This document shows, one piece after another, positions 4,026 to 27,328 of a DNA stretch of 49,631 nucleotides. Position numbers and translations under genes: made by a program. Under the pieces are notes generated by a model. It was not told the DNA's origin, made no database searches, and saw nothing but the letters and a program-made list of their open reading frames with translations. Numbering within the stretch: the stretch's first letter is position 1; the number at the start of each line of letters is the position of its first letter. Origin of the DNA: Patescibacteria group bacterium. Lineage in GTDB: Bacteria; Patescibacteriota; Minisyncoccia; JAHIHE01; JAGLIN01. The DNA lies in assembly GCA_019428855.1 (NCBI GenBank), contig JAHYJV010000007.1:1-49631 (forward strand). The letters run 5' to 3'.

Positions 4026-4042
4026 CTTAAATAATAAAAAAA

Positions 4043-4131
4043 CTGCAATCGCACAGACAACAGTAAAACAATGACAGATATTGTTTTATCCTCGGCAGGA
4101 CTTATGATTGCCTACTGTCTATGGACTAATA
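4043..4131 (-). promoter_or_regulatory. L10 ribosomal-protein leader (autoregulatory RNA)
   Basis: The 5' UTR of rplJ on the minus strand contains AGACAGTAGG followed by GTCCTGCCGAGG, the hallmark segments of the Rfam-type L10 leader that mimics the L10 site in 23S rRNA. GCAATC near the 5' end can pair with GATTGC near the 3' end. That closing helix is directly followed by a run of seven U residues, so it could also act as an attenuator. It lies between the promoter at 4137-4164 and the rplJ start. Confidence 0.85.
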
Positions 4132-4136
4132 TAACT

Positions 4137-4164
4137 ATTATACATAACTTAATTTATATGTCAA
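4137..4164 (-). promoter_or_regulatory. rplJL promoter
   Basis: On the minus strand TTGACA (4159-4164) and TATAAT (4137-4142) are both perfect consensus with a 16-base spacer. Transcription would start near 4130, exactly at the beginning of the L10 leader. Confidence 0.8.
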
Positions 4165-5308: not shown

Positions 5309-6352
5309 TTAATCTAGATATTTATTTTTGTTCCTTAGATGTTCTTCGTATGTTTTGGAAAAGATTGCCCGACCATTTTCTCTTTCCGTCAGAAAATAAT
5401 AATAGTCTGTATCTTCAGGATATATTACCGCTTTGATTGCCTCAAGACCAGGATTGGCAATTGGACCAGGAACTAGGCCCTTGTACTTATAGGTATTGTA
5501 TGGCGAGTCAATTTTTAAGTCCTCGTATGTTGCTTGAGCTCTATGCGAACCTATAATAAAATTTACAGTTGCATCAGATTCAAGAGCTTTATCGATATCC
5601 AGCCTATTTTGAAAAACACTAGCAACTTTGCTCATATCCTCGATATTACCAGCTTCTTTTTCAACAATACTTGCCAAAGTTATAGCTTCAAAAATTGTTT
5701 TATGATTTTTTTCAATCTCCGCTCTTAAACCGCTTGTTAATTTTATATCAAAGTTAACAAGCATCTTTAATGCTATAGCTGCTACGGAAGAATCTTTATA
5801 ATATAGATAGGTGTCAGGAAAATAAAAACCTTGCAGACCCGCCTCTTGTGGCTTATCCTTCAAAAATTCAAATCTTGAAACCAAAGATGAGCTGATATTA
5901 TTATCAAATTCAATAAATTGACCTTCATTTATTAATCCTTCTTGAGCCAGTCTTTGATCGATTTCTTTAACTGAATAACCTTCGGGGATGGTTATCGAAA
6001 TTTCATTGCCAACTATTTTTCCTCCGACAAACAAATCAACCATATCTTCTATCTTCATAGAAGGAGATAATTCATATTTCCCCGCTTGAAGTTTGCTTGC
6101 CATTTTTTTTTGCCAAACATAAATTTCAAAATAATCTGCACCTGATATTAAATTTTCACTTTCTAAATTGGCTGCAATTTGTTTCACTCCTTCACCGCTT
6201 TCGATTACAAATTCCTTCCTGTTATTATCCATGACATTCCAAGGTTTAATTATTTTATTTTGAATTGAGAGATAGGAAACAAAGCCAATGAACAAGAGGA
6301 TGAGAATTAAGCCAATGAACGATAAGACAATTTTCTTTTTATTAATCTTCAT
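5309..6352 (-). CDS. mltG: Endolytic murein transglycosylase MltG
   Basis: A 347-aa inner-membrane enzyme that cuts nascent peptidoglycan strands inside the glycan chain and so sets chain length. One N-terminal membrane helix spans residues 8-29. A LysM-like subdomain follows (SGEGVKQIAANLESENLI, ISITIPEGYSVKEIDQRLA). The YceG catalytic domain contains LASIVEKEAG with the expected catalytic Glu231, ALESDATVNFIIG, and the PYNTYKYKGLVPGPIANPG block. The length matches the family. It is followed closely by pcm and uppS on the same strand, a run of envelope and maintenance genes. Confidence 0.95.
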   Translation of the reverse strand: MKINKKKIVLSFIGLILILLFIGFVSYLSIQNKIIKPWNVMDNNRKEFVIESGEGVKQIAANLESENLISGADYFEIYVWQKKMASKLQAGKYELSPSMKIEDMVDLFVGGKIVGNEISITIPEGYSVKEIDQRLAQEGLINEGQFIEFDNNISSSLVSRFEFLKDKPQEAGLQGFYFPDTYLYYKDSSVAAIALKMLVNFDIKLTSGLRAEIEKNHKTIFEAITLASIVEKEAGNIEDMSKVASVFQNRLDIDKALESDATVNFIIGSHRAQATYEDLKIDSPYNTYKYKGLVPGPIANPGLEAIKAVIYPEDTDYYYFLTERENGRAIFSKTYEEHLRNKNKYLD

Positions 6353-6377: not shown

Positions 6378-6992
6378 TTAACCATTTTCTATCAGAGGAA
6401 CGAAAGCGAATCCTGGAAATTCCCTTCTTATAAACTTATCCTTTCCCTTTTTTTCAATAAGCCAGATGCTATTGTCTACAGGAATCACCAATCTACCTCC
6501 CTTTGCCAGTTGCTGTTCTAATTTTGTTGGTACTTCCCTGAAAGCTGCCGCAGCTACAATGATTTTATCATAAGGAGCTTCTTTTTCATAGCCCCTCGAT
6601 CCATTTCCCAGAATTAACTTTATATTTTGATAAATATATTTTTCACAATTTTGTTGTCCAAATTTATATATTTCAGGGATTCTTTCAATTGCAAAAACTT
6701 GACCCCTTCCCCCTACTATTTTTGCCAACAAACAACTTTGCCAGCCCGATCCAAAACCAATATCTAATATTTTTTCACCTTCTTGGGGCTGTAGTAACTC
6801 TATCATAAAAGCCACGACAAGCGGCTGAGAAATTGTTTGACCAAAACCAATTGGCAATGGTCTGTCAAAATAGGCTTTTCGTCTTGCTTCTTGTAAAACA
6901 AAATCTATTCGATCAACCTCATAAAAGGCATCTATTATTTTAGGCGTCTTTAAGATACCCGTTCTTATTAAATTTTCGACGAGCTGCTTCAT
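6378..6992 (-). CDS. pcm: Protein-L-isoaspartate O-methyltransferase
   Basis: A class I SAM-dependent methyltransferase that repairs isoaspartyl residues in aged proteins. Family blocks are the N-terminal MKQLVENLIRTGILKTPKI, the active-site loop PLPIGFGQTISQPLVVAFM, SAM motif I ILDIGFGSGWQS, and the post-I acidic residue in VFAIERIPEI. I start at the ATG at 6992 (204 aa); an in-frame TTG at 7019 would add nine residues. Neither has a convincing ribosome-binding site. It lies between mltG and uppS. Its product SAH could feed the SAH/MTA deaminase encoded at 8167-9492. Confidence 0.93.
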   Translation of the reverse strand: MKQLVENLIRTGILKTPKIIDAFYEVDRIDFVLQEARRKAYFDRPLPIGFGQTISQPLVVAFMIELLQPQEGEKILDIGFGSGWQSCLLAKIVGGRGQVFAIERIPEIYKFGQQNCEKYIYQNIKLILGNGSRGYEKEAPYDKIIVAAAAFREVPTKLEQQLAKGGRLVIPVDNSIWLIEKKGKDKFIRREFPGFAFVPLIENG

Positions 6993-7031
6993 TACTATTG
7001 TTGAAGAATTAATTAGCAAAAACCATGCTGA

Positions 7032-8166: not shown

Positions 8167-9492
8167 TTATGCAGTCTTTATTTTCTCGGCTATAGAATTA
8201 GATTTTTCAATTGTTTCCTCAAGATTAAAAGTTTTTATTTTTCTATTTTCCAAAATTACTTTGCCATTAATTATGGAAGTTTCGACATCGGACCCCGAAG
8301 CACAATAAACCAAATGGGAATAATAATCATAGACAGGCACCAAATGTGGCTTATTGAAATCTAAAATAATTAAATCTGCTTTTTTGCCAAGCTCTAAGCT
8401 CCCAATTTCATTTTCCATACCAAGAGCTTTAGCGCCATTTATCGTCGCCATTCGCACTACTTCTTTTGCCTTTGCTACTTCCGGATTTAAAGTTGTTACT
8501 TTCGCAAGCTTGGCGGCATAATCCATCTCAGAAAACATATCCAGATTATTATTACTCGCCGAACCGTCTGTTCCGAGACTAACCACCACTCCTTTTTCAA
8601 ATAATTTTCCAATGGGTGCTGCTCCCGAAGCAAGTTTCATATTGCTCTTGGGACAATGAGATACTTTTACATTTCTCTGTCGCAAAATTTCTATATCATT
8701 ATCATTGAGCCAAACACAATGTGCAGCCAGTGTTTTTTCATCAAGTACTTTTATTTTATCTAGATATTCAACTGGCGAAACTCCAAACTTTTTTTTAACA
8801 TCATCGAACTCTTTTTTCGTTTCAGCCAGATGAATTATATAAAGAAGATTGTTTTCTTTTGCATATTCCTTTAACTTAATTAATATTTTTTTACTACAAG
8901 TATAACAACTGTGAGGTTCAACTACAATTGAGATTAGAGTGTTTTTTTTATATTTCTCAAGAAGTTCTGCGGTTAGTTTGATTTTATTATAAAAAATTTC
9001 ATCCTCGTCTCCAAATTCAGAAACCACTCCTTCTCCAATGAACCCTCGCATGCCAGCTTCCTTAGTTGCTTGACCAGCTTCTTTTTCAAAAAAATACATG
9101 TCGCAAAAGGTTGTAGTTCCTGAAAGCATCATCTCAGATAGAGCAAGCTTTGACCCCCAATAGGAAAACTCTTCATCTACAAATTTCTTTTCTGCTGGAA
9201 AAAGATGTTCACTTAACCACTTATCTAGTGGTAAATCATCAGCCATGCCTCGAAAAAGACTCATGGCAAGGTGTGTGTGCGTGTTTACAAGCCCAGGCAT
9301 GACCACCCCACCTCTTGCATTGATTTTTCTCTTGGCCTGATATTTCTCGTTTATATCAATATTTTTTCCAATATCTAAAATTCTATCCGCTTGTATAACA
9401 ACAGAACCATCTTTGATGATATCATCACTCTCGTTAATAGTTAAAACTACGGCATTATTTACAATAATATCGACCAATTTTTTCTTATTCAT
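8167..9492 (-). CDS. mtaD: 5-methylthioadenosine / S-adenosylhomocysteine deaminase
   Basis: A 441-aa amidohydrolase. The metal-binding HTHLAMSLFRG (His72, His74) and the downstream HLAET, AAHCVWL, SHCPKSNMKLASG and LGTDGSASNNNLDMF blocks match the MtaD/SAH-deaminase family. Members of this family deaminate MTA or SAH, by-products of SAM use, to inosyl compounds. The family also includes guanine- and chlorohydrolase-like members, so the substrate is inferred from these motifs. It stands alone between tRNA-Tyr and a non-coding gap. SAM chemistry recurs in this window: pcm, a SAM riboswitch and a broken metK. Confidence 0.88.
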   Translation of the reverse strand: MNKKKLVDIIVNNAVVLTINESDDIIKDGSVVIQADRILDIGKNIDINEKYQAKRKINARGGVVMPGLVNTHTHLAMSLFRGMADDLPLDKWLSEHLFPAEKKFVDEEFSYWGSKLALSEMMLSGTTTFCDMYFFEKEAGQATKEAGMRGFIGEGVVSEFGDEDEIFYNKIKLTAELLEKYKKNTLISIVVEPHSCYTCSKKILIKLKEYAKENNLLYIIHLAETKKEFDDVKKKFGVSPVEYLDKIKVLDEKTLAAHCVWLNDNDIEILRQRNVKVSHCPKSNMKLASGAAPIGKLFEKGVVVSLGTDGSASNNNLDMFSEMDYAAKLAKVTTLNPEVAKAKEVVRMATINGAKALGMENEIGSLELGKKADLIILDFNKPHLVPVYDYYSHLVYCASGSDVETSIINGKVILENRKIKTFNLEETIEKSNSIAEKIKTA

Positions 9493-10888: not shown

Positions 10889-10997
10889 TCTAATTTTATA
10901 TCATTTATTAAAATATGTGCCACTAACTATATTCTAACACAGGATAAAAAATAATTCGATACCCCGCTACCAAAGTTAAGCTTCCTAATTTCATAAA

Positions 10998-11257
10998 AAA
11001 TAAAGAACAAGTTTGAAACCTGTTCTTTATTTTCTTTGCACAAATTTACCACAAAGCTCGAACCTTTTTCCAAGAAAACTTTTGAAGAAAGTTTTCAGTT
11101 TTCGCTCCGCTCCTCTTTCCGCCCGCAAACTTTAAAGAAGTTTGCGTCCAAAAAAGAAAAATTTTCTCTACATTTTTTTGTTGTCGTGCGCCAAATTTTT
11201 TCAAAAAGGAAAAAAAATTTGTTTTGGAGTTCCGATAATTCGAAACGGCGGAAAGCA
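10998..11257 (+). repeat. Inverted 260-bp repeat, copy A
   Basis: This stretch is about 90% identical by eye to the reverse complement of 13931-14196. It begins with a terminator-like hairpin (AAGAACA/TGTTCTT) and contains further hairpins: GAAAACTTT/AAAGTTTTC, and GCAAACTT/AAGTTTGC. It ends near CGAAACGGCGGAAAG. An open reading frame of similar sequence runs through both copies, but nearly every base difference changes the amino acid, so I treat it as non-coding. The two copies bracket thrS. Confidence 0.85.
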
Positions 11258-11325
11258 GGTCTACACCCATACAGAACTCTTCTGGTAATGCAATCCGCAA
11301 TTTAACACTCGAAAAATCTATCTAA

Positions 11326-13373: not shown

Positions 13374-13812
13374 TTACTTATTATTTTTTCCCATCCAGCA
13401 TGTTGGATCTTCAGCTAAATATTTTCTGGATATTCCTTCAGCAGCAGCTCTACATCCTCCACATAATCTTTTAATCTCACATGTTTTGCACTTACCGCCA
13501 ACATTTCTTTCTACAAGATTTTTTATAACATCAGAAGAAATATATTCTTTACGAATTTGGCTTGAGGATTTTCCAATAATATTTACAATTGGTTCTTGCA
13601 ACATAGAACATGGAGTAATAATCGCATTTAAAAAAACATTCATATTGGTAACGCCTGCCGAGCAACCACTAATAAAATCAGATTTTGAACAATTAAATTC
13701 TCCCTTTTGTCTGACTTTTTTCGGATTTGGCTTTTTTCATCTTCATACTTTTTTAATTGATAATCAAACGCACTATTAACCCAACTATTTATTATAATAG
13801 CTCACCTTATAA
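13374..13812 (-). pseudogene. Radical-SAM SPASM-domain protein, C-terminal remnant
   Basis: The last about 130 codons resemble the C-terminus of a radical SAM/SPASM peptide-modifying enzyme: NCSKSDFISGCSAGVTNMNV, ITPCSMLQEPIVNIIG, and GGKCKTCEIKRLCGGCRAAAEG with the cluster-binding cysteines. The upstream part (IIINSWVNSAFDYQLKKYED) continues in another frame, with the shift near 13730, and the CxxxCxxC radical-SAM core is absent. The ATG at 13643 opens an 89-codon frame, but that protein would be only a fragment. It lies next to repeat copy B, which may have caused the loss of the 5' part. Confidence 0.75.
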
Positions 13813-13930
13813 AAATGTCAATAGCAAGTCTCCTATAGCACAAAGGGAGTTACTCGTTTCCGTCCGTGCAAGGGTGGGTTTCGGGGCAAGGACGGCGTAA
13901 ATATAAAAAGAGAGAAACTGCAAAATGCCC

Positions 13931-14196
13931 TACTTTCCGCCGTTTCGAATTCTCGGAACTCCAAAACAAAATTTTTTTCCTTTTTGAAAAAATTGGGCGT
14001 GCAACATCAAAAAAATGTAGAGAAAATTTTTCTGTTTTGGACGCAAACTTCTTTAAAGTTTGCGGGCGGAAAGCGGAGCGGAACGAAAACTGAAAACTTT
14101 CTTCAAAAGTTTTCTTGGAAAAAGGTTCGAGTTTTGTGGTAAATTTGTGCAAAGAAAATAAAGAACAAGTTTGGAACCTGTTCTTTATTTTCTTTG
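13931..14196 (-). repeat. Inverted 260-bp repeat, copy B, abutting tRNA-Trp
   Basis: This is the reverse-complement partner of 10998-11257. One end coincides exactly with the 3' end of tRNA-Trp. The terminator-like hairpin (arms AAAGAACA/TGTTCTTT) therefore lies immediately downstream of the tRNA and probably ends its transcript. The internal hairpins match copy A. The segment 13813-13930 to its left has no recognisable feature. Confidence 0.85.
14155..14195 (-). terminator. Terminator of the rpmG/tRNA-Trp unit
   Basis: Read on the minus strand, AAAGAACAGGTT pairs with AACTTGTTCTTT (one mismatch) and is followed by ATTTTCTTT, directly after the tRNA-Trp 3' end. The same hairpin is part of the inverted repeat. 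Confidence 0.75.
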
Positions 14197-14760: not shown

Positions 14761-15057
14761 CTATTTTAATTTTACATTAATCGCCCCACCTCCTCCTTCG
14801 CAAATTTTCGCATCACAATATTCTAAACATTTTTCATCTAAAATAGACTGCACATATTCCTTCAGAATTCCCTTGTTATTCTCAGAGTGCAGACCTTTCC
14901 CCGTAATAATTCTCACTTTTTTATCTCCATTATTATTTGCCTCATCTAAAAAATCCAAAACTTCTTCTCTTGCTTCCTCCTTAGTTAAGCCATGAAGATC
15001 AAGTTCGACATCAATGTTACGAAGATATTTGTTATGCTTTATTTTCTTTTTTTTCAT
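14761..15057 (-). CDS. Smr-domain protein
   Basis: A 98-aa protein consisting almost entirely of an Smr domain. DVELDLHGLTKEEAREEVLDFL is the LDLHG motif and RIITGKGLHSENNKGILK the TGxGxHS motif; AINVKLK ends the fold. Stand-alone Smr proteins are small nucleases that cut or nick nucleic acid. The MutS2 core is absent, so a mismatch-repair or recombination role cannot be assumed. It is probably a single gene; between it and rpmG there is a 220-base gap with no features. Confidence 0.88.
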   Translation of the reverse strand: MKKKKIKHNKYLRNIDVELDLHGLTKEEAREEVLDFLDEANNNGDKKVRIITGKGLHSENNKGILKEYVQSILDEKCLEYCDAKICEGGGGAINVKLK

Positions 15058-15182: not shown

Positions 15183-15574
15183 TCATCGCTTGTCCAATGT
15201 TTTAAGTCCCTTTGGCAAATATTCATCTGTTTTATAGCCATACATAATTACCTGCTCACCTGCACCACCCGTATCTACTTTTTGCGCAATATTAAATGAC
15301 TGACAAGTAATATTTAAGATAATCTCCAAATCCTCTTCAATACCAATATTGCGATAAACCTGTCTGGCAATCTCTTTAAAATCAACCTCAGATTTCGTGG
15401 TTATTTCTCCCCCAATATTCGAAACTCCATGACCTTCGAAATTTTCTACGGCTACACGAGTTTTGAATCACCTCTCAAACATTCATCAAGAATGACATCT
15501 GAAATTTATTCGCAAACCTTATCAGGATGCCCTGATGTCACACTTTCCGCTGTGTAATTTTTTTTTCCAAACAT
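15183..15574 (-). pseudogene. metK: metK remnant (S-adenosylmethionine synthetase, N-terminal third)
   Basis: Starting at the ATG at 15574 the sequence reads MFGKKNYTAESVTSGHPDKVCE and then a TAA stop where the family has Gln, followed by ISDVILDECLRGDSK. A frameshift then leads into RVAVENFEGHG, SEVDFKEIARQVYRNIG, and VDTGGAGEQVIMYGYKTDE, which corresponds to the GAGDQG catalytic loop. It ends at LKTLDKR and two stops, about 130 residues into a normally 380-400-residue enzyme. The conserved HPDK and GAGEQ motifs are intact, so decay looks recent. A SAM-I riboswitch lies 1.1 kb upstream on the same strand. Confidence 0.9.
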
Positions 15575-15678: not shown

Positions 15679-16170
15679 CTATTTCTCGGGTTGAATTTCC
15701 TTATCTTCGATGACATATAAAATGTGTGATTTATCTTTTTTCTTTGAAATTTTAATTTCTAAATTTATTGTTCCTTTTTCAAAAATCAATATTCCATCCT
15801 CGGTTCTACTTTTTATCACCCACTCCTCGTAATTTTTTTTTCTGAGATAAAACTCCTTGATATCTTCTGATGAATCTGTGCTTACAAAGGTCCATTTTTT
15901 TAAATTTTTATTCCCTAAAGACAAGGAAGATAAAACCGATGGACTTGCATTTTGATAAGAAACTATATGTTCAGCCAAGGTTATTGACATTTTTTGCTCA
16001 AACCAAAATAAATAGCTGGACATAAAAAATATAACAAGAAAGAAGAAAAACAAAGCTTGTGAACCTCTTTTTGAAAAAAATAAATATTCATGCTTTGTTG
16101 CAAAACCAAAATAATGAGTTATTATCACACATAACAAGGTTAATACTACTGTTACTAATATAATTGTCAT
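15679..16170 (-). CDS. Small membrane protein of unknown function
   Basis: I do not recognise the family. The ATG start at 16170 gives 163 aa; a TTG at 16188 would add six residues. Two hydrophobic helices are visible (about residues 2-19 and 36-58), followed by a soluble region of about 105 residues containing SLGNKNLKKWTFVSTD, RKKNYEEWVIKSRTEDGILIFEKGTINLEI and KSHILYVIEDKEIQ. The C-terminal part looks like a compact beta-rich domain, probably outside the membrane. It sits between the broken metK and the riboswitch-controlled ORF, separated from the latter by a weak terminator. Confidence 0.55.
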   Translation of the reverse strand: MTIILVTVVLTLLCVIITHYFGFATKHEYLFFSKRGSQALFFFFLVIFFMSSYLFWFEQKMSITLAEHIVSYQNASPSVLSSLSLGNKNLKKWTFVSTDSSEDIKEFYLRKKNYEEWVIKSRTEDGILIFEKGTINLEIKISKKKDKSHILYVIEDKEIQPEK

Positions 16171-16228
16171 AAATAGATAGTTAATCAACGATTATATTCT
16201 ATCTTAATTAAGGCTTCGTGTCTAAAAT

Positions 16229-16256
16229 GAAAGAGCTTTTATTAAGCTCTTTTCTT
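16229..16256 (-). terminator. Weak terminator after the riboswitch-controlled ORF
   Basis: On the minus strand AAGAGCTT/AAGCTCTT with a short loop is followed by TCATTTT. It would separate the 79-aa gene from the membrane-protein gene. Confidence 0.5.
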
Positions 16257-16257
16257 A

Positions 16258-16497
16258 TTACACCAGAAAACCTCTATAATAGCTCCCCTCTATTCTTTTC
16301 CCTAATTCAACACCAAATTTTGACAAATCTATTGTAAAAGCAACTCCTCCTTCTTCTTTGACAAGGGTAACTGTATTTTCCCCAATAAACTTCATGCAGG
16401 AACCTGGATACTTAATTAAAAAACAATTGCAAACGCTCTTCAACTCGAATCCAAAAGATATAAGACCAACTATATCAACTTTATTTATCTTACTCAT
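16258..16497 (-). CDS. Orphan 79-aa protein controlled by a SAM riboswitch
   Basis: I do not recognise this protein. The ATG at 16497 (MSKINKVDIVGLISFGFELK) is preceded by GGTGATC, a plausible ribosome-binding site; upstream GTG and TTG codons are less likely starts. The sequence is mostly short hydrophobic beta-strand-like segments (KSVCNCFLIKYPGSCMKFI, VAFTIDLSKFGVELG) with three cysteines near the middle and no membrane helix or signal. It is the first gene after the SAM-I aptamer and its terminator, so its expression should rise when SAM is low. It could be a genuine small SAM-responsive protein or a remnant left when a met gene was lost. Confidence 0.55.
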   Translation of the reverse strand: MSKINKVDIVGLISFGFELKSVCNCFLIKYPGSCMKFIGENTVTLVKEEGGVAFTIDLSKFGVELGKRIEGSYYRGFLV

Positions 16498-16642
16498 TTT
16501 GATCACCAATTATTTCCTATTTAATTTATTTTATTCTTTATTTTTATTTGTATTTTATTTTTATAATTAATAATAGACTAGCTGATTGCCATTTTAAAAT
16601 TTATATGATAATTTAAAAATTATTAAACAAGTTTAAAACATC

Positions 16643-16674
16643 AAAAAACTCTCATCCAAGAAAGAAAAGAGTTT
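16643..16674 (-). terminator. SAM-riboswitch-controlled terminator
   Basis: On the minus strand AACTCT pairs with AGAGTT and is followed by six T. Its 5' strand contains CTTTTC, complementary to GAAAAG at the 3' edge of the aptamer, which provides the competing antiterminator expected for an ON-when-low-SAM switch. Confidence 0.7.
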
Positions 16675-16691
16675 CGTCATTATAATAGACT

Positions 16692-16805
16692 TTTTATCTT
16701 TTCCACTTGGGTCAGCTAGTTTAGCACCTTCCTTTGATTTTTACATCGCAGGAGGTTGCCGACGGACTTAACGAGCTAGCACTCTATCCGTTCTCTTGAT
16801 AAAAT
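16692..16805 (-). promoter_or_regulatory. SAM-I (S-box) riboswitch aptamer
   Basis: The minus-strand sequence has the SAM-I hallmarks in order: TTATCAAGAGA at the 5' P1/P2 junction, TCGGCAACC before P3, and AAGGTGCTAAACTAGC at J3/4-P4. The 3' P1 strand is GATAAAA, pairing with TTTTATC. CTAGC in J3/4 can pair with GCTAG in the P2 loop, the conserved pseudoknot. The P2 kink-turn region is diverged from the usual AGGGA. A terminator follows at once and an orphan 79-aa gene lies 195 bases downstream. Confidence 0.9.
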
Positions 16806-16825
16806 TATATTCAATTGTTAAATGA

Positions 16826-16854
16826 AACTTATCAAACAATTATAATTATGTCAA
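16826..16854 (-). promoter_or_regulatory. Promoter of the SAM-riboswitch transcript
   Basis: TTGACA (16849-16854) and TAAGTT (16826-16831) on the minus strand are 17 bases apart, about 20 bases upstream of the aptamer. The rest of the gap 16855-17060 holds nothing I recognise. Confidence 0.6.
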
Positions 16855-26311: not shown

Positions 26312-27328
26312 TTATAGCTCAACTTCCTTTGCACTATGTTTTCCTGCTAATTGTCCGCAGGCTGCTTCGATATTATCTCCAAATCTATATCTTTGTGTAA
26401 CTTCTATACCTTGCTTTTGTAGAATTTCTTTAAATCTCTTAATTTTCATTCCTGAGGATGGCTTGAATACTCCTGTTGCATTATATGAAATTAAATTCAC
26501 CAAATAGAATTCGTCTTTCATAATTTCGGCCAAAGCAATGGCATCGTCCGCTCTGTCATTTATTCCTTCAATCATCACATATTCAAACATCACTCTTCTT
26601 CTGGTTTTGTTTGTATAATCTTTTACTGCCTCAATAATTTTTTGCAGTGGATATTTCAAATTTATGGGCATTAATTTGGAACGCACATTATTTTTTGCAG
26701 AATGTAGCGAAATGGCAAGATTAATTTGCAATTTTTCCTTGACCAATTTTTCAATTCCTTCAATGATTCCAGCCGTGGAAATTGAAATTTTTCTAGCACC
26801 AATCTTCAGGCCATCTTCGTCGTTCAATGTACGAACCGCCTCTAAAACATTATCATAATTCAAGAAAGGTTCTCCCATCCCCATAAAAACCACATTTGAA
26901 ACTCTCTCTCCTTCCTTATTTAACAAGCGTGCAAAAAATAAAAGTTGTGTCACAATTTCGGATGAAGTTAGATTTCTTTTAAATCCAAATTTTCCGGTCG
27001 CACAAAACTCACAAGCTAGAGCACATCCAACTTGAGAAGAAAGACAAACCGTGTTTCTTTTGTCTTTATGTTTTAAAAGCACAGTTTCAACCTTTTGGCC
27101 GTCTTCCAAAGTGATAAGTGCTTTGATGGTTTTCTTGTCATTTGAAACAAAAGATTCTGCCTTAATAGAAAGTGGTAAATTTTGAGTGAGTTTTTCACGC
27201 AATTCTTTTGATAAAGTTGTGGCTTGTTGCCAATTATCAATCAACTCAATAAACAAAGAACGCTTAATCTGTTTTAAGCGGTAAGGCGGTTCCCTACCGA
27301 GAATTTCATTAAATTTCTCAAGATTCAT
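26312..27328 (-). CDS. rlmN: 23S rRNA (adenine-2503-C2)-methyltransferase RlmN
   Basis: A 338-aa radical-SAM enzyme that methylates A2503 of 23S rRNA (and A37 of some tRNAs). QVGCALACEFCATGKFGFKRNL carries the CxxxCxxC cluster motif. VVFMGMGEPFLNYDNV, KISISTAGI and LAISLHSAKNNVRSKLMPIN are signature blocks. The second catalytic cysteine is in IEAACGQLAGKH near the C-terminus. The length is slightly short of the 370-380 of E. coli because of a trimmed N-terminal domain. It is a single gene, and repeat copy 1 lies 56 bases beyond its stop. Confidence 0.96.
   Translation of the reverse strand: MNLEKFNEILGREPPYRLKQIKRSLFIELIDNWQQATTLSKELREKLTQNLPLSIKAESFVSNDKKTIKALITLEDGQKVETVLLKHKDKRNTVCLSSQVGCALACEFCATGKFGFKRNLTSSEIVTQLLFFARLLNKEGERVSNVVFMGMGEPFLNYDNVLEAVRTLNDEDGLKIGARKISISTAGIIEGIEKLVKEKLQINLAISLHSAKNNVRSKLMPINLKYPLQKIIEAVKDYTNKTRRRVMFEYVMIEGINDRADDAIALAEIMKDEFYLVNLISYNATGVFKPSSGMKIKRFKEILQKQGIEVTQRYRFGDNIEAACGQLAGKHSAKEVEL

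Follow-up and report, generated by a model that had tools for sequence, protein, structure and literature searches.

A SAM-I riboswitch before a small orphan gene in a Patescibacteria genome that retains only a metK pseudogene

The window analyzed in this study is a stretch of 49,631 nt from a Patescibacteria group bacterium (contig JAHYJV010000007.1, assembly GCA_019428855.1), and all coordinates are positions in this window in forward-strand numbering. The features of the locus lie on the minus strand and are given here in the direction of transcription.

16826-16854, minus: promoter-like site, TTGACA - 17 nt - TAAGTT (weak -10), read from the sequence
16691-16805, minus: SAM-I riboswitch aptamer (P1-P4, kink-turn side loop, pseudoknot), from the RF00162 match and covariation
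16776-16780, minus: pseudoknot strand 1 (GCTAG, P2 loop), pairs with 16715-16719
16715-16719, minus: pseudoknot strand 2 (CTAGC, J3/4), pairs with 16776-16780
16656-16710, minus: antiterminator, 16697-16710 (CCAAGUGGAAAAGA) pairing with 16656-16670 (UCUUUUCUUUCUUGG), from folds
16643-16674, minus: intrinsic terminator (attenuator), AAACTCTTTTC...GATGAGAGTTTTTT, from the fold and relatives
16258-16497, minus: 79-aa orphan gene (coding 16261-16497, stop to 16258)
16230-16252, minus: terminator-like hairpin 3' of the orphan, weak T tract, read from the sequence
15679-16188, minus: 169-aa protein of unknown family, hydrophobic N-terminus
15192-15574, minus: metK pseudogene, residues 1-132 of about 350, from tblastn
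14761-15057, minus: Smr-domain gene, which follows intact metK in the relatives G003 and G011

The initial annotation had recognized SAM-I hallmarks, a closing P1 and a pseudoknot here, and every one of these parts was found, on the minus strand. The Rfam model RF00162 matched the aptamer over its full length (model positions 1-108) with 36.0 bits, at E = 1.1e-6 when 351 bases were compared with all 4227 Rfam families, and the aptamer is the sole RF00162 hit in the 0.98-Mb genome (E = 7.1e-7). As this score lies under the curated gathering cut-off of 44.4 bits, a scan of the window at the gathering threshold did not list it. The covariance-model check thus returned a full-length match with a score below threshold, but that threshold is not the right yardstick for this element, given the homologues and their covariation: an RF00162 search of 18 genomes of the order revealed ten SAM-I elements, scoring 36-47 bits and spread over nine genomes, with five of the nine homologous elements passing the cut-off. 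Because the sister elements score in this range, the low score appears to be a trait of the lineage, in whose SAM-I elements P4 is short and P1 is rich in A+T.

Degradation of the aptamer, which the initial annotation had named as grounds against its proposal, was not seen; the ten homologues covary. In their alignment, 90.6% of the cells of the SAM-I structure were paired, compared with 32-50% when the partners were slid by 1-3 columns, and the covariation score was matched by none of 500 shuffles. The pseudoknot was 100% paired in all ten elements, and in three of its five pairs both partners had changed. The AAGAG, GGCAACC and GGUGC segments and the GAUAA strand of P1, which we take to be the SAM-pocket segments of SAM-I structures, are kept in this aptamer and are invariant or nearly so in the alignment. 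Three changes are private to this genome at columns constant in the other nine sequences (G29A, C88U and A39G), and G29A and C88U form a mutually compensating pseudoknot pair found here only. Since the private changes are mostly compensated and the terminator is intact, the element does not seem to have been left to decay. Judged by its aptamer, pseudoknot and expression platform, the element is a SAM-I riboswitch, with SAM as the predicted ligand.

Upstream of the aptamer, the -35 hexamer of the promoter-like site occupies the identical place in most relatives, and the site was not listed by a consensus promoter scan. Downstream, the stretch 3' of the aptamer folds to -13.4 kcal/mol, and the attenuator, which a simple terminator scan did not catch, has a sequence common to this genome, G014, G009 and one of the two G011 elements (G011-C95). 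The proposal that the 5' strand of the terminator competes for the 3' edge of the aptamer was borne out by mutually exclusive folds, as the antiterminator pairing excludes both P1 and the terminator. With the 5' strand of P1 free, the minimum-energy fold carries the antiterminator at -42.8 kcal/mol (ON), and with P1 forced, the fold carries the terminator at -40.6 kcal/mol (OFF). The two states differ by 2.2 kcal/mol, so that ligand binding could decide between them. The layout is that of a transcription-attenuating OFF switch, with the direction of control predicted from these folds. On binding of SAM, P1 and the pseudoknot would close and sequester the antiterminator strand, after which the terminator at 16643-16674 would halt transcription; when SAM is scarce, the 3' edge of the aptamer (CCAAGUGGAAAAGA) would pair with UCUUUUCUUUCUUGG, the terminator would be blocked and the orphan would be made.

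The first gene behind the switch is, as initially described, an unrecognized small protein, having no Pfam or NCBIfam match, and it is preceded by a Shine-Dalgarno-like GGTGAT at 16502-16507. The further claim that it has a terminator of its own stands in part: the hairpin at 16230-16252 is present, but its T tract is weak and a simple terminator scan did not list it. When the orphan was searched across relatives for co-occurrence with SAM-I, the protein search of the order gave one homologue, 44% identical, in G014, and a search of the genome contigs likewise gave the G014 locus only. This homologue sits behind the SAM-I element of G014, with a 38-aa ORF between them, in a genome without metK. 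The pair shows a dN of 0.56 and a dS of 1.14 (dN/dS about 0.5), and its identity of 44% exceeds that obtained by placing an equal number of changes at random (mean 27.5%, maximum 40%, in 2000 trials). Because dN is below dS and the identity is above random placement, the orphan frame appears to be under purifying selection. The start of the G014 gene (L022, G014:C10, about 5451-5461) reads ATG-TAA-ATT behind a good Shine-Dalgarno sequence and is followed by 81 open codons; this copy may be damaged, may begin at a later ATG within the frame (giving 60 aa), or may reflect an assembly error.

From the two sequences, AlphaFold2 predicted a compact orphan protein with one helix and five strands (mean pLDDT 84.6, pTM 0.68). 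The predicted fold had no match under E 0.001 in the PDB or viral structure libraries, the sequence had no match in the PDB, and no homologues were found in viral contigs. Three matches in the class at E 0.005-0.007 were set aside as chance level for 384 genomes, and no significant similarity was detected to the short reading frames that SAM-I precedes in G011 (of 85 and 131 aa) or G017 (of 98 aa). In what was searched, the relatives of the orphan are therefore confined to two CPR genera. The 169-aa gene also lies 3' of the orphan in G014, where it is shortened, and a relative of it adjoins the metK-type SAM-I element in G011.

About 0.7 kb beyond the orphan lies the metK pseudogene, which matched by tblastn at 77-82% identity in two frames, with residues 1-39 carrying an in-frame TAA and residues 39-132 in another frame. 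It has a frameshift near 15462 and small deletions, and the remaining two thirds, including the C-terminal domain, are absent, as is PF02773. The pseudogene is the only trace of metK in a genome rated 100% complete, in which no second SAM synthetase of bacterial or archaeal type was found. As the Smr gene lies 3' of intact metK in G003 and G011, it marks an ancestral SAM-I - metK - smr order, and SAM-I precedes metK in G003, G005, G008, G009, G010 and G011. Users of SAM remain in the window, namely RlmN (26312-27328) and protein-isoaspartate methyltransferase (6378-7019). With metK dead, no second copy and SAM users retained, we infer that SAM must be imported.

Several other elements were observed in the window and its counterparts. 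A radical-SAM protein survives as an 89-aa SPASM-domain fragment (13374-13643, minus), another SAM-related gene in decay, and in the G014 neighbourhood a 469-aa ORF appears to be a radical-SAM/SPASM protein of full length. An amidohydrolase of the MTA/SAH/5'-deoxyadenosine deaminase group (8167-9492, minus), which may handle SAM by-products, is near the switch both here and in G014. A 268-nt inverted repeat (10992-11259 and 13929-14196, 93% complementary) flanks thrS and a broken gene; its outer ends carry a 49-nt hairpin, ATAAAGAACAAGTTTG...CCTGTTCTTTAT, and it is possibly a mobile or MITE-like unit. The L10 leader, a known ribosomal autoregulation element, was found at 4027-4142 (minus; RF00557, 50.7 bits) before rplJ/rplL.

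The class sample comprised 384 genomes, with metK called by a match at E <= 0.001. SAM-I was found in 64 of these genomes and metK in 102. The initial annotation had considered such riboswitches unexpected in a CPR-type genome; this did not hold, since SAM-I is present in one sixth of the sample and mostly stands before metK, an intact copy of which lies behind 45 of the 66 listed SAM-I elements. SAM-I occurs in 46 of the 102 metK genomes, against 18 of the 282 without a metK match (Fisher p 4e-17), an enrichment that is expected of a metK switch. The 18 genomes with SAM-I and no metK, this genome included (17 if G101 is dropped), are at least 90% complete in 16 cases, and an archaeal-type SAM synthetase as a substitute was absent from all 18. 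The G101 match (23.8 bits) lies inside an apparent coding gene and is probably false, and the G066 match (25.6 bits) is uncertain.

The switches of the metK-less genomes nearly all precede genes of unknown function. A terminator-like hairpin stands right behind the aptamer in 15 of the 20 elements not followed by metK, compared with 0.9 expected from shuffles, which suggests that most of these are working switches. Three target groups recur: the 79-aa protein in two genera, a pair resembling cobalamin adenosyltransferase, and a family of about 135 aa. The pair is a two-gene unit behind SAM-I in metK-less G049 (C6 near 86150, L038) and G135 (C4 near 6000, L080), and the first of the two genes has a Cob_adeno_trans match (PF01923; E 3e-24 for G049). 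The family of about 135 aa, previously undescribed (L092-L095), occurs at four loci.

G306:C7:17536-17946
G097:C3:25776-26174
G262:C1:370152-370553
G024:C20:10622-11023

Its members share the motif SFIPxxLEI..PE..FPxNVLFA ... HFTMxGLxNGExCEF, have no Pfam match and are unrelated to the 79-aa orphan. A profile of this HFTMxGLxNGE family against the 384 genomes gave four hits only, all directly behind SAM-I and from four taxonomic families; G024 has metK elsewhere, and G306, G097 and G262 have none.

Concerning the origin of the locus, the metK-type terminator of G003, G008 and G010 differs from the ATGACGAAACTCTTTTC... form (or a close variant) of this genome, G014, G009 and G011-C95, and G011 carries two SAM-I units. 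These two terminator types, together with the two G011 units, point to an ancestor with two SAM-I units, one for metK and one for the orphan, and tentatively suggest that the ancestral metK unit died here and the orphan unit stayed. The closest element by sequence, that of G009 (91% identical), nevertheless drives metK, which suggests that the units also recombined. Before the metK pseudogene, nhmmer gave a possible trace of a SAM-I leader at E 7.6, and its local alignment exceeded all shuffles for two of five references; a similar putative remnant in G009 had E 0.17. These faint matches weakly suggest that a second SAM-I leader, since decayed, once preceded the metK pseudogene, as would fit the two-unit ancestor. 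In addition, a repeat, TATATATTGAAAGTTTTTTCAA..CCAAGATGG.GTGAAG, lies inside the metK leader L025 (G011:C17) and upstream of the aptamer in L023 (G011:C95), and perhaps it moved or split the two units of G011.

Based on this evidence, we consider it probable that the bacterium is a SAM auxotroph and that SAM-I works here as an OFF switch, with the orphan made when imported SAM runs low. This reading builds on the aptamer, its platform, the loss of metK, the conservation of the orphan and its association with SAM-I in another genus, all legible in the DNA itself, and it would take SAM as the ligand, shortage as the ON signal and import as the source. Since SAM must be imported, the orphan would most likely be a SAM-shortage protein acting in uptake, sparing or host interaction. 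The reading is limited by the poor -10 hexamer, by a score under the Rfam cut-off and by an orphan known from two genomes only, with an ATG-TAA start in the G014 copy; the closest element, that of G009, also speaks against it by driving metK.

The initial annotation had offered two options, either a SAM-responsive protein not described before or a switch left stranded when a met gene was lost, and both are partly right: metK was indeed lost, but the switch is undecayed, and the protein is also conserved downstream of SAM-I in another genus. That the element was once that of metK, now happens to precede an ORF of no importance and will decay in its turn is unlikely in our judgment. The nearby pseudogene, the G009 element driving metK and the ATG-TAA start of the G014 copy would fit such a course, but the aptamer carries no private damage beyond its compensated pair and one substitution, its terminator is intact, and the orphan, apparently under purifying selection, also follows SAM-I in G014. 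Many other metK-less genomes also retain such switches, and the faint leader matches hint, weakly, that metK had a separate leader. We regard it as quite improbable that the 79-aa ORF is no gene and that the true target of the switch is the 169-aa gene or a small RNA. The ORF is small, A+T-rich and without a family match, and it is followed by a hairpin and, in G014 too, by the 169-aa gene; against this, its frame is conserved with dN below dS, it has a good Shine-Dalgarno sequence and a five-strand fold predicted from just two sequences (mean pLDDT 84.6), and the hairpin separates it from the 169-aa gene. We give very little credence to a change of ligand after the loss of metK, by which the aptamer would sense another metabolite such as SAH or a methylthio or decarboxylated derivative. 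The missing metK, the score under the cut-off and the differences in P3 and P4 between the G008/G010 type and this one could be cited in its favour, but the presumed SAM-pocket segments are kept, and sister elements with the same core drive metK.

CPR bacteria lack most biosynthesis. Within the limits stated above, the real surprise is a SAM sensor that has apparently outlived SAM synthesis, rather than SAM-I in CPR. What seems new is that an intact SAM-I switch is kept after SAM synthetase loss, that it has a specific orphan as its target and that such cases recur across the class. In the searched literature, whose coverage leaves most subscription journals outside, no report of SAM riboswitches in CPR/Patescibacteria was found; in one paper containing both 'riboswitch' and 'candidate phyla radiation', riboswitches figure only as synthetic tools. 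A SAM-I element that outlives SAM synthetase would mark genes responding to imported SAM and could thereby single out candidate proteins for scavenging among small ORFs that otherwise defy interpretation. The proteins behind SAM-I in metK-less genomes are therefore a testable question, with one family already seen only behind SAM-I. More tentatively, and perhaps with less than even chances, SAM-auxotrophic CPR bacteria may repeatedly have kept SAM-I after metK loss and may now use it to sense SAM taken up from outside. Small proteins specific to each lineage, namely the 79-aa protein, the pair resembling cobalamin adenosyltransferase and the HFTMxGLxNGE family, would then be switched on in a SAM-starvation response for scavenging from the host or surroundings.

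Compared with known systems, the element shares with the terminating form of SAM-I (S-box, RF00162) the full-length aptamer, the pseudoknot and the exchange between P1, antiterminator and terminator, and its sisters precede metK; it differs in scoring 36.0 bits under a cut-off of 44.4, in controlling an orphan gene and in lying in a genome with a metK pseudogene only. The SAM-I regulon consists of methionine and SAM genes, whereas the first gene here is the orphan. With the SAM-I - metK units of the class (for example those of G003, G005, G008 and G010) it shares the aptamer family at 74-81% identity, but here the 79-aa orphan is the target and metK is a pseudogene. SAM-I before uncharacterized genes was previously reported in Bacillales and Clostridiaceae (Firmicutes) and in Chloroflexi, where those genes were placed in sulphur amino-acid metabolism or its transport (PMC3766115). 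The present case has such an arrangement in common with them and differs in that its genome lacks SAM synthetase and its gene has no relatives outside the two CPR genera among the genomes searched.
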